From Thalassospira profundimaris (lineage in GTDB: Bacteria; Pseudomonadota; Alphaproteobacteria; Rhodospirillales; Thalassospiraceae), in NCBI RefSeq assembly GCF_003326795.1, contig NZ_JPWI01000010.1, positions 62,001-126,000 of the forward strand: 64,000 nucleotides of DNA, written 5' to 3'. Numbering within the stretch: position 1 is the first letter of the stretch; the number at the start of each line of letters is the position of its first letter. This document shows positions 5,026 to 36,997 of the stretch, in pieces. The position numbers and the translations under genes are program-made. The notes below the pieces were generated by a model that was not told where the DNA came from, ran no database searches, and saw nothing but the letters and a program-made list of their open reading frames with translations.

Positions 5026-6723
5026 ATGTTCGGTTCGGGTTCGGGTGACAGCCATATTGTAAAGGCGATCAAACAATCGCAGGGTACGATCGAGTTTTCG
5101 CTTGATGGTCAAATAATCGATGCAAATCAGAACTTTCTGACATTGATGGGATATGAGCTTTCGGAAGTGCGTGGCAAACATCACAGCATGTTTGTCGATC
5201 CGGAATTCTCCCGAAGTGCCGAATATGCGCAATTTTGGGAACGGCTTAAAGGCGGTGAATCCTTTACAGCCGAGTTTCAGCGATTTGGCAAAGGCGGCAA
5301 GGAAGTCTGGATTCAGGCGACCTACAATTCCGTGCTGGGGGCCAACGGCAAGCCCTACAAGGTTTTCAAGATCGCAAGTGATATTACCGAGCGCAAGCTT
5401 AAGGCAGCCGACTATGCCGGGCAGATTGCAGCGATCAGCAAATCGCAGGCGGTTATCGAATTTGATCTGAATGGCAACATTCTTGATGCGAACGAGAACT
5501 TTCTGTCCACGATGGGCTATCAGCTTTCGGAAGTTCAGGGCAAGCATCACCGGATATTTGTCGATAAGGACTACGCCGACAGTCAGGAATACCGCGATTT
5601 CTGGAAGCAGCTTGCGACAGGAAAGCATCTTGCCGCCGAATATCAGCGCTATGGCAAAGGTGGCAAGGAAGTCTGGATTCAGGCCAGCTACAATCCGATC
5701 CTTGATATGGCAGGGCGGCCTTTCAAGGTCGTCAAATACGCGACCGACATCACAGCCCAAAAGCTTCAGGCTGCGAATTTTGCCGGTCAGATAGAGGCAA
5801 TCCATAAATCACAGGCCGTGATTTCATTTGAAATGGACGGAACCATTCGCAATGCGAACGCCAATTTCCTGGCTGCGATGGGATATAGCTTTGATGAAGT
5901 TATTGGCAAACATCACAGCATGTTCATTGATCCCGCAGAGGCGCAAAGTTCCGAATATAAGGAATTCTGGGATTCTCTTCGCCGGGGCGAACACAAGGTC
6001 GCCGAATTCCGCCGACTGGGCAAGGGCGGTCGCGAAGTCTGGATTCAGGCAAGCTACAACCCGGTTGTCGACATGAATGGCCGTCCGATCAAGGTGGTGA
6101 AATATGCCACGGATATTACCAAGCAAATTCTTGCCCGTCGCAAAGCCAAGCAACTGGCCGAAGGATCAAGCACCAGTGCCGAGGCCGTCGCCAGCGCATC
6201 CGAGGAAATGTTGGCGGCCATTCAGGAAATCAGTGAAAGCATGCATCGCTCGCAAATTGCGATGAACGATATTGTTGCAAAAACCGAAGAAGCCAACGAG
6301 GTTCGCGCCGATCTTGAAACAACGTCTGAATCAATGGCCGGTGTTGTGCAAATCATTCGTGACCTTGCCGAGCAGGTGAACCTTCTTGCACTCAATGCAA
6401 CAATCGAGGCCGCGCGTGCCGGTGAAGCAGGCAAGGGCTTTGCGGTGGTTGCTGGCGAGGTGAAAAACCTTGCCAACCAGACAGCCAAGGCAACCGACGA
6501 AATCGAAACGCAGATCGAAGCAATGATGGACATTACCAAGCGGGTGGTGGCATCCACTGCGGGTATTTCAACATCTGCGGAATCAGTAAGTGGCTATGTC
6601 GATTCAATTGCATCCGCAGTTGAGGAACAGACAAGCGTCACACAGGATATTTCGAAAAACATTCAGTTTGTCTTTAACGGCATTTCCGAACTGAATGACT
6701 GCGTAAAAAGCATCGCAAGCTGA
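5026..6723 (+). CDS. Soluble methyl-accepting chemotaxis protein with three PAS domains
   Basis: 565 residues with no membrane segment or HAMP domain, so it is a cytoplasmic sensor. Three PAS modules follow one another with an exact 122-residue period (about residues 7-125, 130-247 and 252-370). Each holds a MGY-(L/F)-EV-GKHH-FVD or FID motif and ends GKGG(K/R)EVWIQA-YN, K-ATDIT. The remaining 190 residues are an MCP signalling domain with the conserved hairpin tip ([20 protein letters not shown], then [14 protein letters not shown]). The plan is like Pseudomonas BdlA (two PAS plus MCP) with an extra PAS. Such proteins sense redox or small ligands and feed CheA. AAGGAG lies upstream of ATG 5026. 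Ligand unknown; I see no diagnostic heme or flavin residue. Confidence 0.93.
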
Positions 6724-6730
6724 TCACGGT

Positions 6731-7447
6731 TCAAGCCATATTTTCCCGGTCAGGCAGTAGCTGCCAGATCCGGGTGAATTTTGTATCGGTATCCTCGACC
6801 GCAACATCGACGGGAACGTCATAGGTTTCGAGTTCGTCGATATTATGGGTCGGGGCATAGGTCCGGCCCGGATCGGCAAGGATAACACGGGTGCCAAGGC
6901 GCGCCTCGGCCATCAGCCATTGCAGAACGGCATTGGCCATGTCCTGCTGATAACAGACGTCACCGGCAAAAATCACGTCCCAGCGCTTTTCTGGTGCACT
7001 GGTGCCCACGAAGTTCTCGGTCGTGGTCGGGAAGTCGACCCCGTTGCGCTTTGCATTGAGCCGGGTCGCGGTAATCGCGACCGGATCAATATCATTTGCC
7101 AGTATCTTGGCGGCTTCGGCCATCACACAGGCAATGGCCTGCATCCCGCCACCGCAGGCAAAATCCAGCACCCGTTTGCCGCGCACCAGTTCCGGGTGAT
7201 CAAGGATATAGCGCGTGATTGCCTGACCGCCGGGCCATGCAAAAGCCCAGTAGGGGGGCGGAATATCAAGCACACCAAGAATATCCTCGGTCGCTTGCCA
7301 AAGCGGGGTGATATGGGTCGCCAGATACATCTCGATTTCCGGTGCCAGCGGCACGCGTGCCGGTACGGTAAAAGTCTCGATCAGATCGGCAAATTGCGGA
7401 TCGTCGACTTCCGGAACCAGGGCGTCAGCAAAGATGTTTTCGGTCAT
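6731..7447 (-). CDS. SAM-dependent methyltransferase, ETF-beta lysine methyltransferase type
   Basis: 238 residues from ATG 7447. It has a seven-beta-strand methyltransferase core: motif I VLDFACGGGMQAIA at about residue 95, the acidic strand-2 end ANDIDPVA, and the post-II motif DVIFAGDVCYQQDMA. The N-terminal PPYWAFAWPGGQA is typical of the METTL20/ETFBKMT and nicotinamide-methyltransferase-like family, whose mitochondrial and alphaproteobacterial members methylate lysines on the electron-transfer flavoprotein beta subunit. An upstream in-frame start at 7546 would overlap the preceding antiporter gene and adds a low-complexity leader, so it is rejected. Substrate is by family only; another protein lysine substrate is possible. 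Convergent with the chemoreceptor gene. Confidence 0.75.
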   Translation of the reverse strand: MTENIFADALVPEVDDPQFADLIETFTVPARVPLAPEIEMYLATHITPLWQATEDILGVLDIPPPYWAFAWPGGQAITRYILDHPELVRGKRVLDFACGGGMQAIACVMAEAAKILANDIDPVAITATRLNAKRNGVDFPTTTENFVGTSAPEKRWDVIFAGDVCYQQDMANAVLQWLMAEARLGTRVILADPGRTYAPTHNIDELETYDVPVDVAVEDTDTKFTRIWQLLPDRENMA

Positions 7448-7517
7448 GAATTGGCTACTTTGACGGTGATCATCTGCGGGAAGTACCGGCTTTGCTGCAA
7501 TTGAGCAAGGTCGATTA

Positions 7518-9314
7518 TCAAGCGGCCTCTGTTTCGGTCTTGCCAAGATACAAGATCACGTCGCGCGATTTGGCTTTGGGGATGTCCGGGCCGATAAACA
7601 GCTGATTGCCGCGCACCATCGCCAGAATGGTCGGGGATTCGTCATGCAGGTCAGTGAATGCATCCCAGCCAAATTCATCGGTCAGTCTGGTTTGACGAAC
7701 GGAAACCCCGTTCCGATAGTCACGGCGGATATCGTCCGTGGTCAGGGGATTGGAAAACAACTGTAATCCGCCAAGCGTCTGGCTGGCTTTGTGGCGACTG
7801 CGATCATCCGGGCCGCGATGCAGTCCGGTCTGAAAGACCGAGCGTCGCCCGAATTCGGGGGCGAAATCGGTGCAGACCAGTGTGTTATAGGCATCATTGT
7901 CGGTTGCCGCGATCAGTTTGCCCAATCCGGTCGTGTCAAGGTGATGCTCGAATACTTCAGACAGGACTTCTCCGTAAAATGTCGTCAATCCGGCCTCGCG
8001 GGCCGGGCGCAGTGCATGCCAGCGGGAATCGGTAATAACAACCGGGATTTCAAGTTCATGCAGCCGGGTTGCCAGATCAATCGTCCATTGATGGGCACCA
8101 ACAATCAGGACACCGGGCGGACCTTTAAGGGCAAGGTCGAGGTGACGGGCAAGCGGCCGGATCGAAAAACCATGCAGAAGAACCGTGGAAAAGACCATTG
8201 CAAAGGCAAGCGGGATCAGGAGTTTGCCATCTTCATGTCCCAGATGGACAAGTTCGCGTCCAAACAGGCCTGAAACCGCGACGGCAACAATCCCGCGCGG
8301 CGCAATCCAGCTCACCAGCAAACGTTCGCGCCATGCAATCTTTGAAAAGCTGAGCGCACCCAGAATTGAAACCGGGCGCACAATGAACAGCATGGCAAGG
8401 ACAAACAACCCGTGGCCCCAGGTCAGTTCCTCGATCATTGACCATTTCAGGATGGCGGTCAGAATGATGAAGACACTTGAAACCAGTATGACGGTCAGGG
8501 TTTCCTTGAAACGGCGAATTTCGTCAATCGCCATCAGATGGGCATTGCCGATAACAAGACCTAGAACAGTCACGGCAAGAAGCCCGGTTTCATCCTGAAC
8601 GAAATTTGCCCCGGCAAATGACGTCAGCAACACGCCAAGAACCAGCGGGGCCTTGAGAAATTCGGGTATCCAGCCACGACGAAATACCTGCACGGTCATA
8701 AAACCGGCAGCAAGACCGATAACGATTGCAATCAGGATGGTAAAGGCCAGATGGCCAATGACACCGCCCAGTCCGTTGCCCCGTTCAACCGCGACAATCA
8801 CCTCATAGGCCAAGACGGCAAACAGGGCGCCAATCGGGTCATTGACGATGCCTTCCCATTTCAAAAGCGTGCCGGGATGTTTTGATAACCGGGCGTGACG
8901 TAACAGGGGGGCTATGACAGTCGGGCCGGTAACAATCATGATCCCGCCAAACAGGGCTGCCACCGGCCAGCTCAGCCCGGCAAGATAATGGGCCGCTGTC
9001 GCACCAAGCAGCCATGCCAGAAGGGGAGCAAATGTTGTCAGACGTAAAATGCCGCTGACGCTTTGGCGCAATTCCCGGAAATCAAGCGCAAGCCCGCCTT
9101 CAAACAAAATGACGGCCACTGCAATCGAAATCAAAGGCGGCAAAAGCGGGCCAAAATCCGTTACCGGGTCAAGCAACCCGGTTCCCGGGCCCAGAACAAG
9201 GCCCAATACGGATAACACGACAATGGCGGGTATCCCGGCCCGCCAGGCGAACCATTGGGCACCAACCCCGGCAAGGATCAGACCGGCGATCATCAAGGCA
9301 AGCATTGCGGCCAT
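7518..9314 (-). CDS. CPA-type cation/proton antiporter with C-terminal nucleotide-binding domain
   Basis: 598 residues. Roughly residues 1-390 are a dozen hydrophobic helices of the Na+/H+ exchanger fold (GLVLGPGTGLLDP, AVILFEGGLALDF, GGIMIVTGPTVIAPLLR, WEGIVNDPIGALFAVLAYE, then WIAPRGIVAVAVSGLF). The NDP pair is the classic ion-binding signature. A soluble tail contains a TrkA-N-like Rossmann segment (GVLIVGAHQWTIDLATRLHE, then a second half with AATDNDAYNTLVC), as in NhaP/KefC-type regulated antiporters. It exchanges Na+ or K+ for H+ at the inner membrane. AAGGGC lies upstream of ATG 9314. The methyltransferase gene follows after 70 bases. Ion preference cannot be read from sequence. Confidence 0.9.
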   Translation of the reverse strand: MAAMLALMIAGLILAGVGAQWFAWRAGIPAIVVLSVLGLVLGPGTGLLDPVTDFGPLLPPLISIAVAVILFEGGLALDFRELRQSVSGILRLTTFAPLLAWLLGATAAHYLAGLSWPVAALFGGIMIVTGPTVIAPLLRHARLSKHPGTLLKWEGIVNDPIGALFAVLAYEVIVAVERGNGLGGVIGHLAFTILIAIVIGLAAGFMTVQVFRRGWIPEFLKAPLVLGVLLTSFAGANFVQDETGLLAVTVLGLVIGNAHLMAIDEIRRFKETLTVILVSSVFIILTAILKWSMIEELTWGHGLFVLAMLFIVRPVSILGALSFSKIAWRERLLVSWIAPRGIVAVAVSGLFGRELVHLGHEDGKLLIPLAFAMVFSTVLLHGFSIRPLARHLDLALKGPPGVLIVGAHQWTIDLATRLHELEIPVVITDSRWHALRPAREAGLTTFYGEVLSEVFEHHLDTTGLGKLIAATDNDAYNTLVCTDFAPEFGRRSVFQTGLHRGPDDRSRHKASQTLGGLQLFSNPLTTDDIRRDYRNGVSVRQTRLTDEFGWDAFTDLHDESPTILAMVRGNQLFIGPDIPKAKSRDVILYLGKTETEAA

Positions 9315-9392
9315 AAATGTGCCCTTGTAATTGTCGTGATATCAGACAGATGGTGTGCGTATTCAAAAAACACAGCCCCGATCTGAAACTTG

Positions 9393-10346
9393 TCAGGCAA
9401 GCGCGATCAGATGCGACATGACAATGGCGCCAAGCACCAGCAATCCATAATCCCGGTTCGATTTAAAACGTCGCAGGCAATTGGCCGCGTCGTCAAGCTT
9501 GACGGTTGCGACTTGCCAGCCCAGATGAATGCCTGCAAGACCGAGTAACACGAAATAGGACCAGTGCAAATCGGCCAGCATGCCCGAAATGCCAAGCAGC
9601 AATGTGGTCAGGGTATAAAAGCCCATTGTCCATTTCGGGGTCGCGTCCCCCAGACGCAGGGCAAGGGATTTCAACCCGATCTTGGCATCATCATCCTTGT
9701 CCTGATGGGCATAGATGGTGTCATAGCCAAGCGTCCAGAAGAAGCCCGCCGCATACATGGCAATTGCCGCTGGTGCGACTGTTCCGGTGACGGCCGCCCA
9801 TCCGACAAGCGCGCCCCAGTTAAAAGCAAGTCCAAGGACCGATTGCGGCCAATAGGTGAACCGCTTCATGAACGGATAGACAATAATGATCGGGATCGAA
9901 CAGATACCGACAACGATCGCCTCAATCCGGAACTGCACCAGAATGGCCAGACCCAGAAGCATCATGCAGCCAAGGAACAGCAATGCCTGCCATACCTTGA
10001 CCTGACCGCTGGGCAAGGGACGGGTGATGGTGCGTTCGACCTTGCCATCGAAATTACGATCGGCAAGGTCATTGATCACACATCCAGCCCCGCGCATGAT
10101 CAGTGCCCCAACGCCAAACAGGGCCATCATGATGACGATTTGCTTGGCGGTAATGCCGTCTGTAATGCCACCGGCCATCGCAGTTGACCACCAACAAGGC
10201 AAAAGCAGCAACCATGTGCCAATAGGTCGATCAAGACGCAGCAGCTTCAAATACGGGCGAACGGGTTCAGGCACGTAACGGTCAATCCAGCCATCTGCCG
10301 GCATGTCGTTTTTGGTACTCTGTATTGGTTGGTTGACCTGTGTCAT
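9393..10346 (-). CDS. ubiA: 4-hydroxybenzoate polyprenyltransferase UbiA
   Basis: 317 residues, integral membrane, with the two aspartate-rich motifs of the UbiA superfamily: CVINDLADRNFDGKVERT and DTIYAHQDKDDDAKIG. It transfers a polyprenyl chain to 4-hydroxybenzoate, committing it to ubiquinone. Length and motif spacing match proteobacterial UbiA. ATG 10346 is chosen; TTG 10364 is an in-frame alternative. The gene diverges from rsmE across 60 bases, so the two promoters are back to back. It is separated from the antiporter gene by 78 bases with no clear terminator. Confidence 0.93.
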   Translation of the reverse strand: MTQVNQPIQSTKNDMPADGWIDRYVPEPVRPYLKLLRLDRPIGTWLLLLPCWWSTAMAGGITDGITAKQIVIMMALFGVGALIMRGAGCVINDLADRNFDGKVERTITRPLPSGQVKVWQALLFLGCMMLLGLAILVQFRIEAIVVGICSIPIIIVYPFMKRFTYWPQSVLGLAFNWGALVGWAAVTGTVAPAAIAMYAAGFFWTLGYDTIYAHQDKDDDAKIGLKSLALRLGDATPKWTMGFYTLTTLLLGISGMLADLHWSYFVLLGLAGIHLGWQVATVKLDDAANCLRRFKSNRDYGLLVLGAIVMSHLIALA

Positions 10347-10406
10347 AATTGGCCTATCTAACAAAAAACTTTTTCAAGTCGCCGTAGAACGGCTTTGGGG
10401 ACCTAC

Positions 10407-11207
10407 ATGACCGCAGATGCCACCCGCGCCCGTCAGCGCCTTTTCGTCCATGATCCTATCACGGCCGGTTGCGAGATCGAACTTGCTCCTGAACAGTCTC
10501 ATTACCTTGAACATGTGATGCGTCTCAAGCCCGGAACGCCAGTTAAAGTTTTTAACGGGCGCGATGGCGAGTGGCTAGGCACGATCAGCGAGCTTCGCAA
10601 AAAGAAGGGGCGTATCACCGCCGGGACGCAATTGCGCGAACAGGGCACCGAGGCCGGACCGACTCTTGTTTTCGCGCCGATCAAAAAACAGCGCCTTGAT
10701 TTCCTGATCGAAAAGGCGGTCGAGCTTGGTGTTGGAAAACTTCAACCGGTCATTACCCAGCACGGTATCACCGACAAGGTGCGGCGGGATCGTTTGCAGG
10801 CACAGGTCATCGAGGCCGCCGAACAGTGCGAGCGCCTGACTGTGCCTGAAATTGCCGAGCCGGTACGTCTTCTCGACTGGGTCGCAAATGGTGCCGAAGA
10901 TCACCATTTGCTGTTCTGTGACGAGACGGGATCGGGGTCACCAATTGGTGAAGTGTTAAGTCAGCTATTGGCAAAGGGCGCTGGCTCGGTTATCGACAAT
11001 ATCAATGTTGTTAACCATGCACTCGTGATTGGACCCGAAGGCGGCTTTAGCGCCGACGAACTTGAACGTATCCGCAAACAGCCTTTTGCAACGCCTGTCA
11101 GTCTCGGCCCACGTATCCTTCGGGCGGAGACAGCGGCAATTGCTGCATTGACGGTATTTCAGGATCGCATCGGCGATTGGTCACACCGACCAGTTGCGAG
11201 AGATTAG
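10407..11207 (+). CDS. rsmE: 16S rRNA (uracil-1498-N3)-methyltransferase RsmE
   Basis: 266 residues. The SPOUT-class knot is visible as ALVIGPEGGFSADELERIRK followed by SLGPRILRAETAAIAALT, the SAM-binding deep trefoil knot of RsmE. The N-terminal PUA-like part holds HYLEHVMRLKPGTPVKVFNG. The enzyme methylates U1498 of 16S rRNA in the assembled 30S subunit. ATG 10407 is selected over TTG 10395 because GGGGA is 5 bases upstream. gshA follows after 12 bases and is probably co-transcribed, ending at the terminator at 12611. Confidence 0.93.
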   Translation: MTADATRARQRLFVHDPITAGCEIELAPEQSHYLEHVMRLKPGTPVKVFNGRDGEWLGTISELRKKKGRITAGTQLREQGTEAGPTLVFAPIKKQRLDFLIEKAVELGVGKLQPVITQHGITDKVRRDRLQAQVIEAAEQCERLTVPEIAEPVRLLDWVANGAEDHHLLFCDETGSGSPIGEVLSQLLAKGAGSVIDNINVVNHALVIGPEGGFSADELERIRKQPFATPVSLGPRILRAETAAIAALTVFQDRIGDWSHRPVARD

Positions 11208-11219
11208 GGGAAGCCCTTT

Positions 11220-12590
11220 ATGACTGTCAGCGCCTCCACTGGTGACAGCCCGGTTATTGAAAGCCGGCGTCAGCTTATCGAATGGTTTGAGTCCGGTTCC
11301 AAACCGAAAAGTGACTGGGCCATCGGCACCGAACACGAAAAATTCGCCTTCACCCGCGATGACCTTCGCCCGATCCCCTATGAAGGGGAACGGGGTGTTA
11401 AAACCCTTTTGAATGCCCTTGCCGAACGCTATGACTGGGAGCCGATCATCGAGAACGGCAATGTCATCGCACTGACCAAGGACAAATGTTCTGTATCGCT
11501 TGAACCGGGCGGTCAGATCGAACTGTCGGGTGCCCCGCTTAAAAACATTCACCAGACCTGTGGTGAAGTGCATACCCATCTTCATGAACTGCGCGAAATT
11601 TGCGGTGATCTTGGCATTGATATGCTTGGTGTCGGTCATCAGCCGAAATGGGCGCGTGAAGACATTCCGTGGATGCCCAAGGGGCGTTACGGGATCATGC
11701 GCGAATATATGCCCAAGGTTGGCAATCTTGGTCTTGATATGATGCTTCGGACCTCGACCATCCAGGTCAATCTGGATTTCAGTTCCGAGGCCGACATGGT
11801 CAAGAAATTCAGGACCTCGCTTGCGCTTCAGCCGGTTGCGACTGCATTGTTTGCGGCATCACCGTTTGTTGACGGCAAGCCAAGCGGTTTCCTGTCATCA
11901 CGGTCAAACGTCTGGACCGATACCGATCCGGATCGGTGCGGTATGTTGCCGTTCGTGTTCGAGGACAGTTTCGGCTTTGAACGCTATGTCGACTATATGC
12001 TTGATGTGCCGATGTATTTTGTTTATCGCGATGGCAAATACATCAATGCTGCGGGCAAGTCGTTCCGTGACTTCATGGATGGCAAGCTCGATGTGCTTCC
12101 GGGAGAACGCCCGACCATGAATGACTGGTCGGACCATATGACAACCGCCTTCCCCGAAGTGCGCCTTAAGAAGTTCCTTGAAATGCGCGGGGCTGACGGT
12201 GGTCCGTGGAAGCGCATCTGTGCGTTGCCGGCCCTTTGGGTCGGGTTGCTATATGATGATGCGGCCCTTGATGCAGCATGGGATCTGGTCAAGGATCTGT
12301 CGGTTGAGGAACGCGAAGCCCTTCGCAATGATGTTCCGCGTACGGCACTGGCCACCAAATTCAAGAATGGCACCGTTCAGGATCTGGCGAAGGACGTCCT
12401 TGCTGTTTCCAAACAGGGCCTTCATGCACGTGGTCGCATGGATGGCTATGGCGATGACGAAACCCATTTCCTCGAAAGCCTTGAAGATGTGGCGGAAAGT
12501 GGTCGTACGCTTGCCGAAGAGTTTCTTGATAAATATGAAACCGAATGGAACGGTTCGGTCGATCCGGTCTTTAAGGAATATGCCTATTAA
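11220..12590 (+). CDS. gshA: Glutamate-cysteine ligase, plant/alphaproteobacterial type
   Basis: 456 residues, matching the plant-like class (about 450) rather than the E. coli class. It makes gamma-glutamylcysteine, the first step of glutathione synthesis. Family blocks include [59 protein letters not shown], and [20 protein letters not shown]. In plant enzymes activity is tuned by redox disulfides; whether that applies here cannot be read. AGGGGA precedes ATG 11220. Glutathione reductase (gor) lies elsewhere in the window at 44.9 kb, so this cell clearly uses glutathione. Confidence 0.95.
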
Positions 12591-29315: not shown

Positions 29316-30335
29316 CTATCTCAGGGTAGTATGAAGTTCAGAGATTTGCGCGATATCGGTGTTCCATGCCGCAACGAACCGATAAACATCTGCACCAAGT
29401 GACGGCCATGCATGGAACATCAGTCCCGCATCGCGCAGCTTTGCAGCAAGCTCTGCGGGCAGTTTTACAAACAGCTCGTTGCCGTCTTTTGGATGGGCCA
29501 GGGTCGCGCCGCGTCCGATCAGAAGATCGGCAAGGGCGGACGCTGCCTGATTGGCATGTGCTGCATTCTTGAGCCAGACGTCATTTTTGACATAGGCCAG
29601 AAGCTGTGTGGCCAGATAGCGATGTTTGGAATGCAGATGGCCACTGCGTTTGCGCGCCTGTTCGATCCGGCCTTTCAGGCTGGTATCAAACAGAACAATG
29701 GCATCGACCGCCATCGCGCCGTTCTTGGTCGCGCCAAAGCTGATGGCATCAACGCCTGCTTTCCAGGTGATGTCGGCCGGATGGCAATCAAGATGAGCAA
29801 CTGCATTGGCAAAGCGTGCACCATCCATAAAAAGACGCAGATCATGTTTCTTGCAGATGTCACCAATGGCGGTCACTTCCGCCGGGCTATATACGGTGCC
29901 CAGTTCCGTTGCCTGCGTGATCGCGACACATTCCGGGGCAACCGAATGGACCCCGCGATTGACCTGACCGGAAATAAAGGCATCAAGTGCCGTTGCTTCA
30001 AGTTTGGCCGTTGGCCCATCCATCGGAAGAAGCTTTGCCCCGCCGGTGAAAAAGGCAACACCGGTGCTTTCGTCTTCATTGATGTGGGCTTCGTGGTGAC
30101 AGACAACGCCGCCATATGGTGTGACAAGGGCTGACAGGCTGATGCAGTTTGCCGCAGTCCCGGTTGCAACGGGAATAACCGCAACCTCCTTGTCAAACAG
30201 ATCGGAAAATGTGCGATCAAGCTGCTGGCTGATTTCGTCGCTACCATAAGCCGGTGCATTGCTGCTGGCTTCAAGCGTCAATGCTTCGAGAACTTCCGGG
30301 CAAAACGGGGACACATTGTCGGAGGCAAAGTTCAT
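29316..30335 (-). CDS. ltaE: Low-specificity L-threonine aldolase, copy 1
   Basis: 339 residues, PLP fold type I. The PLP lysine lies in ISFGATKNGAMAVDAIV, preceded by RLFMDGARFANAVA, whose aspartate binds the pyridine nitrogen. The N-terminal MNFASDNVSPFCPEVLEAL and VIPVATGTAANCISLSAL match threonine aldolases that split threonine (and beta-hydroxy amino acids) into glycine and an aldehyde. It is roughly 60% identical to the next gene by eye and exactly the same length. It is the downstream member of the pair, 102 bases after its paralogue. Confidence 0.9.
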   Translation of the reverse strand: MNFASDNVSPFCPEVLEALTLEASSNAPAYGSDEISQQLDRTFSDLFDKEVAVIPVATGTAANCISLSALVTPYGGVVCHHEAHINEDESTGVAFFTGGAKLLPMDGPTAKLEATALDAFISGQVNRGVHSVAPECVAITQATELGTVYSPAEVTAIGDICKKHDLRLFMDGARFANAVAHLDCHPADITWKAGVDAISFGATKNGAMAVDAIVLFDTSLKGRIEQARKRSGHLHSKHRYLATQLLAYVKNDVWLKNAAHANQAASALADLLIGRGATLAHPKDGNELFVKLPAELAAKLRDAGLMFHAWPSLGADVYRFVAAWNTDIAQISELHTTLR

Positions 30336-30437: not shown

Positions 30438-31457
30438 TCATCCAATCGACTGTGGCAGCGATTTGATCAGTTCAATCGGGCTGTTCCAGGCACACACAAA
30501 ACGGTATGCGTCCGGGCCGATGGAAGCCCATGGGCGAAACACGATCCCCGCATCCCGCAGGCGTTGCGCCAGATCGTCATTCATATGAATGAAAAGTTCG
30601 TTGCCTTGCGGCGGGAACGCGGCTGTGGCGCCCATATTCTCAAGACTTTTCTGCAAGGCTTTGGCCGCCTCATTGGCGTGGCGCGCATTACGTAACCAAA
30701 GATCATCTTGGACATAGGCCAGAAGCTGGGCAGCAAGATAGCGGTGCTTTGAAAACAGATGACCGCCGCGCTTGCGGCTTTTTTCCGTGTGACGCCGCAA
30801 CTTCGGATCAAACAGGATGATGGCATCAACGGCCAGGGCTCCGTTTTTGGTCGCCCCGAAGCTTAAAACATCGACACCCGCTTTCCAGGTGATATCAGCC
30901 GGATGACAGTCAAGGGCTGCAACCGCATTGGCAAAACGTGCGCCATCCATAAAAAGGCGCATGCCGTGTTTCTGGCAGACATTACCAATCGCCTGAACTT
31001 CCGCAACGTCATAGACGGTCCCGAACTCGGTGCTTTGGGTTATGGCAACGCATTCGGGGTCTACTGAGTGCATGCCATTTGAAATATGTGACCCCAGACA
31101 GCGATCAAGCGTATCTGCCTCGATCTTGGCAGATGGCCCGTCAATGCCAAGCAGTTTGGCACCACTGCCATAGAAAGCCACACCGGTTGATTCCGTCATA
31201 TTGATGTGGGCGTGATGATGACAAACAACGCCGCCAAACGGTGACACCAGCCCCGAAAGCCCGACCAGATTTGCAGCCGTTCCTGTCGCCACCGGTATAA
31301 CGCAAACGTCGGTTCCGAACAGGGCTGAGAAGGCCGCATCAAGTTGTCGGCTTTTGTCATCCGCGCCATAGGGAAGGGCGGCACTTTCGCTTTCCGCAGC
31401 GATAGCATTGAGAATTTCGGGGCAGATGGGCGAAACATTGTCAGATGAAAAGTTCAT
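30438..31457 (-). CDS. ltaE: Low-specificity L-threonine aldolase, copy 2
   Basis: 339 residues with the same PLP lysine block (LSFGATKNGALAVDAII) and DGARFANAVA. It differs from copy 1 mainly at surface and entry-loop positions such as HHHAHINMTESTG versus HHEAHINEDESTG, so substrate preference may differ. GAGG precedes ATG 31457. Both copies keep all recognisable catalytic residues and appear functional. The pair is a local duplication on one strand. Confidence 0.9.
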   Translation of the reverse strand: MNFSSDNVSPICPEILNAIAAESESAALPYGADDKSRQLDAAFSALFGTDVCVIPVATGTAANLVGLSGLVSPFGGVVCHHHAHINMTESTGVAFYGSGAKLLGIDGPSAKIEADTLDRCLGSHISNGMHSVDPECVAITQSTEFGTVYDVAEVQAIGNVCQKHGMRLFMDGARFANAVAALDCHPADITWKAGVDVLSFGATKNGALAVDAIILFDPKLRRHTEKSRKRGGHLFSKHRYLAAQLLAYVQDDLWLRNARHANEAAKALQKSLENMGATAAFPPQGNELFIHMNDDLAQRLRDAGIVFRPWASIGPDAYRFVCAWNSPIELIKSLPQSIG

Positions 31458-31572: not shown

Positions 31573-33855
31573 CTATTTGCTTGTCGCGATAAACACACCA
31601 TCCCACTCGACCGGTGGCGGGGTTTCCCGGAATGTCACGATACGATCGGAATACATGTCATAAAGGGCTGCCAGTGCACCGACACCACGCGATGCCTGAC
31701 GACACTGGTCAAGCAGTTCCTCTGCCTTGTCCCATTGTTGCGTACGATAGGCGTCCAGCATTGACTTGTGCAATATCTGACAGTTCCTGAATTCTTCTGT
31801 CTGGCAAAGTTTGGCACCGCCAAGCAGGGCAAAGATATGCACAGCTTCGCTTTTGCCTTTCACCGCAATCAGATCGAGTTCCAGTGTGGCAAAATCATTC
31901 TCGACACGTTTGGCAACATCTTCACCCAGAACGATGTCAACGCCGTAATTTTTCGACTGCCCTTCAAGACGGGAGGCCAGATTGACCGCATCGCCCAGAA
32001 CAGAATAATCGAACCGCTGATCCGATCCCATATTGCCAACAAGGCAGTCACCGCAATTGATCCCGATGCCAATGTTAAGCGGCAGGAACTTTTCATTGTC
32101 ACGCTTGGCTTCGCCCAGACGTTCGGCATTGAGGTGATCAAGCGCCTCACGCATGGCAAGTGCGCTATCACACGCATGATGGGCATGGTTTTCAACATCA
32201 AGTGGTGCATTCCAGAAGGCCATGATGCAATCGCCCATATATTTGTCGATTGTGCCTTCCCGATCGAGAATGCATTTGGTCAGTGGTGTCAGAAGCCGGT
32301 TGATCAGGCGCGTCAAACCCTGCGGGTTGGATTTGAACCCCTCGGAAATCGAGGTGAAACCGCGGACATCACAAAACATCAAGGTCATGTCTCGGGTTTC
32401 ACCACCAAGCTTCAATTGTTCCGGGTGGCGTGACAATTGATTGACCAATGCCGGGGACAGATAGTTCCCGAAGGCAGAGCGGACCTGCCGCCGTTCGCCT
32501 TCGGTGCGTACAAAGCCGATGGAGCTGGTCGCCAGATAAACAGCCAGCAAGCTGACCAGCGGATAGACCGGATCAATCAACAGCAATTTGGCATCATATG
32601 CCCACCATGAAAATCCGGCGGCACCAAAGGCCAGTGTTCCGCCGATCACCGCAGGCCAGACGGCACCAAGTCGTGGAACGGCAAGAACAAAAAACAGGCC
32701 GATCAGCAAAAGAACAAAGCTTTCCGTTTCTGCGGCCCAATATGGGCGGGTCAGGAAATGGCCCAGCAACATCTGTTCAAGCATCTCTGCATGCACTTCT
32801 ACCCCCGGCAAAACCCGATCAAGCGGTGTGGACCGCAAGTCAAGCAATCCTGCCGCACTGGTGCCGATCAGGACAATCGTGTCGCGAAGGCTTTCCGGTG
32901 GCAGAGTGTCATTCAAGACATCAAGCGCCGAGATATAACGCTGTTTCTCACGGCCGGTGAAATGAACCCACATATATCCGGCATGATCGGTGGGAATGGT
33001 AATGGCACCGACCCTGATGGCCTCGATACCCTCTGACCGGGTCCAGCGTGAACTGCCACTTGCCCCGGACATCCGCACATTCATGGTTTTCGGGGCATCC
33101 TGAAGAACGCGAAGCATTTCCATCGATAACGTCGGATAAACAGGCATGCCAATCACGGGCAGGTCGTAATCCAGTGCCGCCAGTAGCGGAACCCTGCGCA
33201 CCACACCATCCTGTTCCGGTGACACATTCACCAGCGCATTGCCACTTGCCGCATTTTCTATGATATCGAGGTTTTTGGCCGCACCGGGCAGCACAGCAAT
33301 AAAGTCGGAAAGTTTTCTTCCTGCTTCACCCGATGTACTGAAATTGCCGATTTGCCTTGGCGGGGTTTCCAGTTTCTTGTTGCTCAGCTGGATTGCCGTA
33401 ACGACTTGTCCTGTACCCTGAATGAACTGGGCAAACAGTTTGTCATGATCTGGCAGTTTATCGGCAAGGGCGGTTATTTCGTCGCTTTCCGTGCCCTTGG
33501 GCCAGTCCTTCACCACGCGGGCCGGGGATGTTCTGTCGGGCTCGGCAAATACCACGTCAAACCCGACAACCCGCGCGCCGGCCGAACGCAAACGATAAAC
33601 CAGCCCGGCCAGACGGGTACGTGGCCATGGCCACTGCCCCAGTTCTTCCAGACTTTTTTCATCAATGTCGATGATACGAACACCAACATCTTCATATTGG
33701 CGCGGCGCGATGCGCTGATAGGTGTCAAACACGCTCAGGCGCATCTGGTCCACAAATGGAACATCCTGCCACCGCAAAAAGATGCAGATCAGCAGGATGC
33801 CCAAAGGAAGCAAATAATGCAGTATGCGCAGCAGGCTGTTCTTGGTCAGACGCAT
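31573..33855 (-). CDS. CHASE2-domain class III adenylate/guanylate cyclase
   Basis: 760 residues. TM helix about 11-29, periplasmic CHASE2 sensor about 30-375 (VRIIDIDEKSLEELGQWPWP, VVGFDVVFAEPDR), three TM helices about 378-450, and a cytoplasmic class III cyclase domain about 486-680. Both metal aspartates are visible (MFCDVRGFTSISE, DKYMGDCIMAFW), as is the VLGDAVNLASRLEG block. The lysine in DKYMGD is consistent with ATP as substrate. A roughly 80-residue helical tail follows. It is the last gene of a three-gene operon, 25 bases after the FecR-domain gene, and probably converts a periplasmic state set by that protein into cAMP. Confidence 0.92.
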   Translation of the reverse strand: MRLTKNSLLRILHYLLPLGILLICIFLRWQDVPFVDQMRLSVFDTYQRIAPRQYEDVGVRIIDIDEKSLEELGQWPWPRTRLAGLVYRLRSAGARVVGFDVVFAEPDRTSPARVVKDWPKGTESDEITALADKLPDHDKLFAQFIQGTGQVVTAIQLSNKKLETPPRQIGNFSTSGEAGRKLSDFIAVLPGAAKNLDIIENAASGNALVNVSPEQDGVVRRVPLLAALDYDLPVIGMPVYPTLSMEMLRVLQDAPKTMNVRMSGASGSSRWTRSEGIEAIRVGAITIPTDHAGYMWVHFTGREKQRYISALDVLNDTLPPESLRDTIVLIGTSAAGLLDLRSTPLDRVLPGVEVHAEMLEQMLLGHFLTRPYWAAETESFVLLLIGLFFVLAVPRLGAVWPAVIGGTLAFGAAGFSWWAYDAKLLLIDPVYPLVSLLAVYLATSSIGFVRTEGERRQVRSAFGNYLSPALVNQLSRHPEQLKLGGETRDMTLMFCDVRGFTSISEGFKSNPQGLTRLINRLLTPLTKCILDREGTIDKYMGDCIMAFWNAPLDVENHAHHACDSALAMREALDHLNAERLGEAKRDNEKFLPLNIGIGINCGDCLVGNMGSDQRFDYSVLGDAVNLASRLEGQSKNYGVDIVLGEDVAKRVENDFATLELDLIAVKGKSEAVHIFALLGGAKLCQTEEFRNCQILHKSMLDAYRTQQWDKAEELLDQCRQASRGVGALAALYDMYSDRIVTFRETPPPVEWDGVFIATSK

Positions 33856-33880
33856 GGTGCAAACAACTGCCCGTCAATCA

Positions 33881-35326
33881 TCAATTCAACGTCGCGGAAC
33901 CAGATGCACCGGCGCTGACTGCAGTTGTTGTAAGCTTGAAATCAACATTCTTCGCATCTGTAAAGGTTGCTGTGGCGTTGCATCCACCACTTGTGCAATT
34001 GCCGCCGCTATCAGGCGTAAAGTCGCTGCCGGAAAATTTTACTTCGCCGGTTGAACTGGAGAAGTCGACTGTGTTTGTCTTCATCTCGCCCTCTGACACA
34101 GCGGTTAGAAATGCACCGCCATCCTGAATATTCTGGAACGTGATCGACAATTGTCTCGTCGCGAAATTCACAGCAGTGACAAAGTTATAAGACAGGCTGC
34201 CGCTGCTTACAGCGATGGTCCCCGACGTAAAGGTGCCGGTTGATATCTGACGCATCCCGTCATAGGTGAAAGCGCTGCTTCCGCTGTTGCTGCTACTGCT
34301 ATTGTTTGTGCTATCGACATTGCCGAGAATTGAAGTGATTTCACTTTGTGATTTAGATGCACTCGTGGCACCGACTTGTGCCAGGGCAACTTCAATGGTA
34401 CCGGCCATTGCAGCACCGGTTTGCGCATTGGCCTGTTGCGCCTGTCCGGGCGTCACACTTGCCTGTTGGGATACACTTGGTGCGGTTTGGCGCGACCCTG
34501 AACCGGAAGTTCCATCCTGATTGTCGTTGTTTGAAGCGGTCCGGACAAGATTGGTTGAGAAATCAAAGGTTGCGGCTTCTGCGGGGAAGCGTGCGGGCTC
34601 TGTAACAACATTGGTGCCAACAAAGACACCGAAATTCTCGCCGGTAATGTTTTCGCTATTGCCGTTCATATCGGTTACGGCAAACGCGCCGGGGCGGGAT
34701 GTGGTGTCATTGCGTTCAAGACCCGGCCCCTGGTTAACCGCCATAAACACCATCTGGTTGGCGTCATCCGGGTTTAAGGTATCAAACGAACCGGGGATGA
34801 TTTCATTGGCCTGCTCGGTCGAGACTGATCGGATCAGCCCGATGGTGCCGCGAATACCGATTGATCCAACCGGAAGATTGATATCCATGCTTGCCGGGTT
34901 GTTGAGCGGTATCTTGCCCGTTACGAAACGCATGACACCGCGGGCCATGTCTGCGACGATGCGACCATCACCGGTTGCCGGATCGTAGACAAACTCGTCA
35001 ATGGCGACGTCACTGTTCGGTCCGATGGTAAAGACTGTTTCGTCCAGTAAGAGGACTTGCATGCCCGAATTCGGCGACGTGATGATCCGGTCCCCAAGAT
35101 AAACGGGCATCCCGCTTTCAACCAGAACACCGATTTCGCCCGTCACTTTGTTAAGCGTGACATCACCGGTTACGGCGGCGGATACGCCTGCCATCTCGAC
35201 GGTGATTTCAGCTTTTGCCGGTGCGCCAAGCAGAATGGTCAGCGCCATTGGCATGCCGATGGCTACATTTCGTGCAAGGTGCGTAAATTTTCTCTGCAAA
35301 CGGGCGGTCATTACGTTGTTCTGCAT
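33881..35326 (-). CDS. Secreted FecR-domain protein with beta-rich C-terminal domain
   Basis: 481 residues from ATG 35326 (GGGAG 8 bases upstream; an earlier ATG overlaps the previous gene). Signal peptide ends near PAKA; no lipobox cysteine. Residues about 45-165 are a FecR domain (GDRIITSPNSGMQVLLLDET, VFTIGPNSDVAIDEFVYD, LPVGSIGIRGTIG). A Gln/Ser/Asn-rich linker follows (about 235-340). The last 140 residues alternate short strands (VNFATRQLSITFQNI, VDFSSSTGEVKFSGSDF) with one NCTSGGC pair, resembling the small C-terminal barrels of TbpB-like surface proteins. Sandwiched between an outer-membrane DUF560 protein and a CHASE2 cyclase, it may be an exported or periplasmic sensor. The barrel likeness is by eye only. 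Confidence 0.75.
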   Translation of the reverse strand: MQNNVMTARLQRKFTHLARNVAIGMPMALTILLGAPAKAEITVEMAGVSAAVTGDVTLNKVTGEIGVLVESGMPVYLGDRIITSPNSGMQVLLLDETVFTIGPNSDVAIDEFVYDPATGDGRIVADMARGVMRFVTGKIPLNNPASMDINLPVGSIGIRGTIGLIRSVSTEQANEIIPGSFDTLNPDDANQMVFMAVNQGPGLERNDTTSRPGAFAVTDMNGNSENITGENFGVFVGTNVVTEPARFPAEAATFDFSTNLVRTASNNDNQDGTSGSGSRQTAPSVSQQASVTPGQAQQANAQTGAAMAGTIEVALAQVGATSASKSQSEITSILGNVDSTNNSSSSNSGSSAFTYDGMRQISTGTFTSGTIAVSSGSLSYNFVTAVNFATRQLSITFQNIQDGGAFLTAVSEGEMKTNTVDFSSSTGEVKFSGSDFTPDSGGNCTSGGCNATATFTDAKNVDFKLTTTAVSAGASGSATLN

Positions 35327-35328
35327 CA

Positions 35329-36801
35329 CTAGAACTCCCATCGCCGGGTCAGGTAAAACTGTGCCCTGGCATTGTGATATTCATAGTTGGGAATGTTCGA
35401 TTTGGTATTCAGATATTCGCCTGTGATCGACCAGTTAACCGGTGCGAGCAGGTCATAGATCTGATTTGCCGTTTTGCTATCCCCAAACAAGTCCGATGGC
35501 AGTATTTGTGAAAGTGGCGCGCCATAGGTCAATCTTGTCCGTGCACTGCGATCCATCCGGTGTTGTGGCGAATTGCCGGTCACCAGAAAGTCAGGATCAC
35601 GATAACGGTCGATCCCATAACGGAAACTTCCACTTATGTAACTTCCCCCGCCAAACAGATAAGCATGGATCAACTCGCCGCTCAAGCTGTCATAGCTGTA
35701 ATAATTGCGTGCCGCCTCTTTTTTGCCCGCAAAAAGATTAAAGGTGGTGCGGTTATTCGGCGTCCATGTGTAATTCGATCCCAGTCTGGTGCCATAGCGC
35801 TGACCGGAATGTAAACGCAGTGCGCTTGATTCACTGGTATTCTGATAGCGTTCATCGGCATAGCTGACATCACCGTTCAGGTTAAAGAACGGACGCGGGT
35901 TCCAGTCCAGACGCAGCCGCCCGGAACGTGACGTGAGGTATTTTTCCTTGCTAAGGGACTGCACGGTCTGGTTCAGCGTCGGTGTAAGCATCCAGTAACC
36001 ACCGCGAATGCGGCTTCCGACATCGACCGAGAACGACCCAAGGTCAAGAGAGTCAAGCTGCACCTGATCACTGGCATAGCCCGTCACGGCGGCAAAGATT
36101 TCGTGACCTTCCTGATAACCAAGATCATAGCTGACGTCATAGCGAAGGGCGCCGACATAGGCGATGTCGTTCCTCGGTTTGTCAGCTGATGCCGTGATGT
36201 TGGTCAATGTGCCGGTGACCAGTTGCTGCTTGTCATTGGGGGCGGCGTTCCGGTTGCTGTCGACTTGGGACCCCAGAGTCAGTGTCACGGATTGATGCAA
36301 CCGTGCGCGCCGCCGTTCGATGGCATTGATATATTTATCAATGTCAGCCGCGACCTCGGGCGAGACATCCATCTGGCGCAACCGGTCAAACTGCGTGCGC
36401 GCTTCATCAAGGCTATCAAGGCGATAAAGCACAATGGCGTAATAAAGCCGCACCGGTGCCAGTTCGGGATCAAGAACCAGAATGCGCTCAAGTGTGGCTG
36501 ATGCGCCGCGTACCTCACCGCGGGCGAGCTGCGCCTTGGCCCAGCGGAAATTCAGAATAATGTCGTCGGGATTGGCAAGGATATCGGCATAGGTAATATC
36601 CCCGCCATCATCGGTGCGAAGCAAAAGGTTTGCACGTTCGGTGACGTCACGCAGTCTGTCAAAATCGTCGGAAAGTTGACGTGCTTCATCGGTTCGCACA
36701 TCGACGCTCTGTTGTGCGTTGGCACCACCAGTCGCCCCCATCACCAGTGCAACGAGTACAGCTGAAACTGCCGTACCCTGCCGCCATCGGCTTGTATTCA
36801 A
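35329..36801 (-). CDS. TPR-containing outer-membrane barrel, DUF560/Slam-like
   Basis: About 490 residues. A signal peptide (ending near ANA) is followed by TPR-like helices at about 50-150 (NFRWAKAQLARGEVRGASAT, LAPVRLYYAIVLYRLDSLDE), then about 320 residues of alternating aromatic beta-strands that end in WEF, the C-terminal phenylalanine used by Bam substrates. This is the plan of DUF560 proteins (Slam, type XI secretion), which move TbpB-like proteins to the cell surface. No ATG is available: TTG 36801 is chosen for GGGGGA 5 bases upstream, TTG 36813 is the alternative. First gene of the operon, 2 bases ahead of the FecR-domain gene. Confidence 0.75.
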   Translation of the reverse strand: MNTSRWRQGTAVSAVLVALVMGATGGANAQQSVDVRTDEARQLSDDFDRLRDVTERANLLLRTDDGGDITYADILANPDDIILNFRWAKAQLARGEVRGASATLERILVLDPELAPVRLYYAIVLYRLDSLDEARTQFDRLRQMDVSPEVAADIDKYINAIERRRARLHQSVTLTLGSQVDSNRNAAPNDKQQLVTGTLTNITASADKPRNDIAYVGALRYDVSYDLGYQEGHEIFAAVTGYASDQVQLDSLDLGSFSVDVGSRIRGGYWMLTPTLNQTVQSLSKEKYLTSRSGRLRLDWNPRPFFNLNGDVSYADERYQNTSESSALRLHSGQRYGTRLGSNYTWTPNNRTTFNLFAGKKEAARNYYSYDSLSGELIHAYLFGGGSYISGSFRYGIDRYRDPDFLVTGNSPQHRMDRSARTRLTYGAPLSQILPSDLFGDSKTANQIYDLLAPVNWSITGEYLNTKSNIPNYEYHNARAQFYLTRRWEF

Positions 36802-36997
36802 GTTTTCCCCCAAACTTTCTCGGATTTTCGCGGCATCAGTTTCGGTTCTGCACCGTCAGACCAGATGACTTGGCCGAGCTGCGGACCGCCAAAATCGGCA
36901 TAATCTTCTTTTGACAGATTATGAACTATGGTGATCCGATGTAAGCCATTCGGGTGAAGGGTAGGGATAGTGTAGGTCGTATAGTTTTTATATACGT

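Follow-up and report, generated by a model that had tools for sequence, protein, structure and literature searches.

Three adjacent minus-strand genes in a 64,000-nucleotide stretch of Thalassospira profundimaris DNA (contig NZ_JPWI01000010.1, positions 62,001–126,000; the window) may together encode a transenvelope sensor, a split NsrA-type receptor that uses a Slam-like barrel and whose FecR domain is read by a CHASE2 domain, a reading to which we assign a probability of roughly 0.58. The operon comprises sl (35329..36801; 490 amino acids, aa), encoding a Slam/SlipAM-like protein with TPR and outer-membrane barrel, fec (33881..35326; 481 aa), encoding an exported FecR-domain protein with a small C-terminal barrel, and cyc (31573..33855; 760 aa), encoding a class III nucleotide cyclase with a CHASE2 domain, presumably in the inner membrane. 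Intergenic gaps are 2 bases (sl/fec) and 25 bases (fec/cyc), second possible in-frame starts lie at 36813 for sl and at 35341, overlapping sl, for fec, and G+C is uniform across the region (0.51–0.56). That the three genes form a genuine unit is practically certain, and recomputed positions reproduced the spacing, shared strand and coordinates given in a preliminary description of the same DNA.

In the proposed relay, sl in the outer membrane would carry the small barrel of fec to or through that membrane and deliver it to the cell surface, and the FecR domain would stay in the periplasm, or be held there by the linker, where the CHASE2 domain of cyc would read it and cyc would then alter cytoplasmic cyclic AMP (cAMP) or cyclic GMP. 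The operon would thus be a split version of the NsrA–CyaK arrangement of S. meliloti, with the polymorphic small barrel facing outwards to make contact with the environment and a ligand signal presumably passing inwards. Surface exposure of the small barrel is probable and reading of the FecR domain by CHASE2 somewhat less so, with threading of the linker through sl, rather than full secretion of fec, being a tentative proposal.

The modelled sl protein has the Slam-type architecture, with N-terminal TPR helices, presumed to be periplasmic (residues 60–165, 36307..36624; domain profiles and structure model), followed by a barrel of 14 long and two short strands (residues 166–490, 35332..36306; DSSP of the model), bearing out at the level of the model the earlier suggestion of a Slam-like outer-membrane protein. 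Pfam finds TPR in the window sl and TPR_Slam at 8.8e-5, under that model's cut-off. The PF04575 (DUF560/SlipAM) model leaves it unmatched at E ≤ 1 and matches 6 of 27 aligned sl proteins (the window's included) at 0.01, with a best value of 3.9e-8. The porins OmpG and CymA are the solved structures nearest to the barrel model, and no Slam structure is among the matches listed in these comparisons, which excludes nothing.

The N-terminus of fec resembles a signal peptide, ending in AKA|E, and the protein lacks a lipobox, as the preliminary description also noted (both by eye). Its FecR domain (residues 43–240, 34607..35200; Pfam 2.7e-5) has the PupR cell-surface-signalling fold and is followed by a variable linker (residues 241–352, 34271..34606), in which residues 263–350 have predicted local distance difference test (pLDDT) values <50, and by the small barrel (residues 353–481, 33884..34270), which is polymorphic and recombines between relatives. 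Comparison of the predicted structure with solved ones shows that this barrel resembles fHbp, NHBA, TbpB and HpuA, so that the TbpB-like domain suspected earlier survives as a predicted barrel of the fHbp/TbpB/HpuA kind and the small barrel very probably has a Slam-cargo fold. Adjacency to a DUF560-type gene is a trait of type XI secretion system cargo, and fec adjoins sl, a putative gene of this type, in the window and in the 26 of 30 loci that carry all three genes. A role for fec as a FecR-type iron anti-sigma regulator was rejected, as by eye the protein consists of a signal peptide followed by exported domains, with no membrane span, and no sigma factor was found by Pfam among the six neighbouring proteins scanned alongside it.

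The cyc protein has a CHASE2 sensor domain (residues 21–389, 32689..33795; Pfam 6e-64) and a cyclase domain (residues 488–671, 31843..32394; Pfam Guanylate_cyc 2.2e-21), in agreement with its first description as a CHASE2 cyclase. Both metal Asp, Lys and Asn/Arg positions, to which we ascribe the usual catalytic roles by assumption, are intact in 28/28 aligned sequences, the window among them. No phosphodiesterase domain was found by Pfam in sl, fec or cyc.

The closest studied parallel is NsrA, an outer-membrane protein of S. meliloti which, according to the available portions of the source papers, is needed for signalling via the CHASE2 cyclases CyaK, CyaD1 and CyaD2 (PMC7529298, PMC13001267) and is required for ligand-dependent cAMP signalling (PMC7529298). 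In the pSymB record, the gene directly before cyaK is annotated as FecR domain-containing and encodes a protein of 1190 residues with FecR at 66–160 and TPR at ~420–590. We take this gene to be nsrA, an unconfirmed assignment with which the protein length agrees. In both systems FecR, TPR and a barrel, placed at 600–1200 of NsrA by its authors (PMC7529298, in the portion available), are encoded beside a CHASE2 cyclase, and the two cyclases are 35% identical over 661 columns. The S. meliloti parts form one chain of 1190 aa, whereas those of the window are distributed over fec and sl; no small cargo-type barrel was noticed in NsrA, unlike fec, and the large barrels of NsrA and sl are at most candidate homologues. 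A phmmer search for NsrA-like fusions, with the protein beside cyaK as query over the fetched loci, returned two TPR frames only (L066 and L067).

Related pairings occur elsewhere. The available text of PMC9239204 describes a Campylobacterota cluster of a CHASE2 adenylate cyclase, a phosphodiesterase, a FecR-domain outer-membrane protein and a TPR protein, which resembles the window in clustering the cyclase with FecR and TPR proteins but differs in having a phosphodiesterase, and in that text neither a Slam nor a cargo barrel is described. The Burkholderia BiofilmReg operon pairs an exported FecR-domain protein with a CHASE2 sensor, but its output is a histidine kinase, the exported protein is LysM-FecR and no outer-membrane barrel is described in the available text (PMC5192318). 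Two further targets of the S. meliloti cAMP regulator Clr are a FecR-domain protein and a TPR protein (PMC5498481, in part). As the FecR–CHASE2 pairing recurs in NsrA, Campylobacterota and Burkholderia, and as the fec and sl parts are fused beside cyaK, FecR is probably the partner of CHASE2. The window is also like type XI secretion (DUF560/Slam) in that a TPR plus 14-strand barrel adjoins an exported protein with a cargo-like small C-terminal barrel, but the presumed cargo bears a FecR signalling domain, a cyclase follows and the window sl misses the SlipAM model. The preliminary description had proposed that an exported cargo also serves as the signal to the cyclase; the cargo-like fold and the gene linkage stand, but NsrA, the closer studied relative, is a receptor with FecR, TPR and barrel in one protein beside a CHASE2 cyclase, so that a receptor relay has the better support.

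The small barrel of fec is a swappable allele. We compared 18 fec proteins (from the window and 17 loci), averaging CHASE2, cyclase and the sl barrel to represent the core. The mean pairwise identities of FecR (77.7%), the sl barrel (76.8%) and CHASE2 (75.3%) stand well above those of the linker (48.4%) and the small barrel (46.7%). Identity in FecR and in the linker follows that in the core closely (rank correlations 0.94 and 0.93), but identity in the small barrel does so far less (0.44). Relatives that are 98–99% identical in the other measured domains have small barrels only 46–49% identical (e.g. L071 and L074: core 98%, FecR 99%, small barrel 49%), and L069 and L073 share 96% of the core, 98% of FecR and 40% of the small barrel. 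Conversely, L068 and L073 have small barrels 87% identical despite a core identity of 76%, and the window's small barrel is 81% identical to that of L076 versus 46% to that of its nearest relative, L080. Along the DNA of three swapped pairs, identity drops from ~90% to ~50% either inside the linker or where it ends, and rises again shortly after cyc begins. By the approximately unbiased (AU) test, the small-barrel alignment is incompatible with both the core tree (p 3.2e-6) and the FecR tree (1.3e-21). The core tree is acceptable for the FecR alignment (p 0.34), although the FecR tree is rejected by the core alignment, which is longer (6.7e-13).

At a threshold of 60% identity, the 18 small barrels fall into 10 groups; at least 16 of the 18 retain a Cys...Cys loop. 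Several shared barrel alleles are synonymously saturated or have synonymous divergence (dS) >1, and the ratio of nonsynonymous to synonymous divergence (dN/dS) was 0.05–0.23 in 5 of 13 chosen pairs, the other 8 being saturated. Change within an allele therefore looks purifying, and positive selection was set aside on these finite values. Orphan barrel cassettes were likewise rejected as swap donors: a barrel profile at E ≤ 0.01 matched one place in 24 of 29 Thalassospira genomes, two in G157 and none in four. The small barrels resemble allelic lineages of long standing that are swapped now and then, a pattern that recognition of something outside would be expected to produce, and a phage or grazer target would also fit. 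Thalassospira and its relatives are presumed to be free-living marine bacteria; the swapping points to specific surface recognition, with host immune pressure not the obvious cause. A more specific proposal, which we consider rather doubtful, is that the barrel is a recognition tip whose old allelic lineages are kept across species, as at self/non-self or ligand-specificity loci, and which is threaded or displayed by the Slam-like pore, with the FecR half inside instructing the cyclase; if true, this would be a polymorphic transenvelope receptor assembled from a secretion machine and its cargo.

Within Thalassospira, a full-length cyc orthologue, sl and fec were each found in 25 of 29 genomes, including G157, whose genes are spread over two contigs with sl frame-split. 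The other four (G029, G120, G142 and G164) lack all three genes and have an empty site at which tldD adjoins a threonine-aldolase-like gene, the two genes that flank the operon at 17 of 18 Thalassospira-like loci (at the remaining one, L086, the sequence ends within the operon) and at 10/10 loci of a second set, its genomes partly shared with the first. A scan of genome contigs with sl gave 30 loci, 26 of which carry all three genes, reaching Elusimicrobia MAGs (metagenome-assembled genomes), with some loci cut by a contig end; L086, L091 and L097, at contig ends, and L081, with sl and cyc and no fec found, are the exceptions. A scan of plasmids with sl gave no match. Three arrangements occur among the 26 loci: 19 are co-directional (17 Thalassospira-like, Tistlia, with the order sl-fec-sl-fec-cyc, and one alphaproteobacterial MAG), six have cyc divergent (five Elusimicrobia MAGs and one unclassified bacterial MAG) and one has cyc convergent, on an Omnitrophota-labelled MAG contig of 7.8 kb which is possibly mis-binned. 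Two same-strand fec genes are present at L087, L088, L091 and L092.

In the reverse direction, we inspected 40 high-ranking CHASE2-cyclase loci, several of them short contigs, from a class-wide search in which 116 of 289 genomes matched at 1e-60. Both sl and fec were near 16 of these, sl only near 3, fec only near 5 and neither near 16, whereas none of 20 control stretches, drawn from 20 of these genomes, contained sl or fec. With 26 of 30 loci complete, and with sl near 19 and fec near 21 of the 40 cyclase loci, clustering exceeds chance; the cyc profile itself matched 5 of the 20 control stretches more weakly (best-match E-values 1e-67 to 1e-22). Pfam analysis of 10 neighbours in 9 of the 16 cyclase loci free of sl and fec gave HD/GAF (3), DEAD helicase (1), amidohydrolase (1), AAA/HD (1) and nothing (4). 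Matches to sl were found in 19 of 150 genomes in an order survey, where 11 of the 18 loci other than the window have all three genes and three are weak sl matches alone. In a sample of the phylum sl is scarce (5/299 genomes at 1e-20); all five positive genomes have fec nearby, and a CHASE2 cyclase is nearby only in the window and G192.

Several of these observations weigh against a dedicated sensor. The order-survey loci L061–L064, on contigs of 5–13 kb, carry sl and fec but no cyc, L162 and L164 have sl and fec with no cyclase nearby, L163 has only a weak cyclase match within ~20 kb, and some sl-linked FecR proteins lack the small barrel. These surveys make the sl–fec link the tighter one, with the cyclase not always adjoining, and the three genes, joined in one operon in the preliminary description, stay together at most loci, even rearranged ones, though pairs without a nearby CHASE2 cyclase occur. 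On account of such pairs we reduced the weight on the FecR–CHASE2 link slightly and that of the sensor as a whole from 0.6 to 0.58, and raised slightly that of an all-periplasmic alternative discussed below.

The strongest competing explanation, although unlikely, stands close to the preliminary description: sl would fully release fec as soluble cargo, unexported fec would build up in the periplasm and its FecR domain would report the export state to CHASE2. A second DUF560 subfamily is known, from the available part of PMC8406197, to secrete soluble, non-lipidated proteins, and fec has no lipobox and a C-terminal barrel that models like a cargo fold. However, the protein beside cyaK carries FecR and the TPR-barrel part on a single polypeptide, from which FecR could be released only by cleavage. 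The FecR domain evolves like CHASE2 (77.7 versus 75.3% mean identity) and the linker and small barrel vary, which fits retained and displayed halves but is compatible with such a checkpoint too.

Less likely still is that the whole system is periplasmic, with fec a ligand-binding regulator of CHASE2 and sl a TPR-porin that admits the ligand or senses the envelope. The proximity of the sl barrel to OmpG and CymA, the absence of the small barrel from some sl-linked FecR proteins and the Burkholderia FecR proteins that pair with a CHASE2 kinase, no outer-membrane barrel being described in the available text (PMC5192318), would all be consistent with this. Against it, SlipAM is matched by some sl relatives, and allele swapping would, in our judgement, be unusual in a periplasmic domain. 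Furthermore, the proteins that the small barrel resembles, fHbp, NHBA, TbpB and HpuA, are surface or secreted proteins. Co-inheritance of neighbours sharing no common pathway is very improbable, in spite of the single site across the Thalassospira loci examined, the absence of the block from four genomes and the sl/fec pairs without cyc, given the several gene orders across distant lineages, the empty control stretches and the presence of FecR and TPR on one chain beside cyaK.

The transenvelope sensor that we favour would join type XI secretion to cyclic-nucleotide signalling and make the cargo of a secretion pore a receptor. Clustering of FecR, TPR and CHASE2 cyclase has been published (PMC9239204, in the part available) and the NsrA receptor is already in print; the swappable small barrel is new here. 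What CHASE2 domains recognise was called unknown in 2016 in the accessible text of PMC5192318, and the gene unit suggests that CHASE2 reads a FecR domain that is linked to a barrel in the outer membrane. Among the matches listed in the open-licence PubMed Central (PMC) literature, none tied CHASE2 or FecR to type XI secretion and none reported barrel swapping, for which no dedicated search was made; neither FecR nor cyclase is mentioned in the main texts of the cargo surveys PMC12282271 and PMC8406197.

Release of fec by a LapG/TAAG (LapA-type) mechanism was considered because linkers from Elusimicrobia hinted at it, as did a BTLCP gene at L064, and was rejected: the motif, presumed here to be a dialanine LapG-like one, is in 4 of 31 linkers and in none from Thalassospira, and the protease is at one locus. 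The L064 protein, as query over L050–L137 and L162–L164, recovered L064 alone, where a Slam-like gene, two FecR genes and the LapG-family BTLCP protease gene lie together (5821–12411). A motif around [ST]G then Ala (fec residues ~297–322) is kept in most of the 31 otherwise variable linkers. In one Thalassospira genome (L086 7785–9217; G157:C183:6414–6806), sl is in two frames, and upstream of fec there is a lone barrel frame of 163 aa that may belong to another fec copy truncated at contig ends. Many genomes of the order have FecR domains like that of fec within open frames thousands of residues long (e.g. G103:C1:1565853–1566200), which suggests that FecR is a common domain of giant exported proteins. 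L162 (1217–10288; same phylum, other class) combines three FecR genes with two Slam-like ones and no cyclase match, and in Ensifer sp. PDNC004 (L139, 735–10004) a small FecR protein and a small TPR protein are encoded next to a CHASE2-type cyclase and to export genes of the bacteriocin type (NHLP). Directly downstream of the operon in the window are two tandem threonine-aldolase-like genes (Pfam Beta_elim_lyase; 29316–30335 and 30438–31457, minus strand), whose mutual matches are ~65% identical in relatives and which are both retained in the four operon-free genomes.

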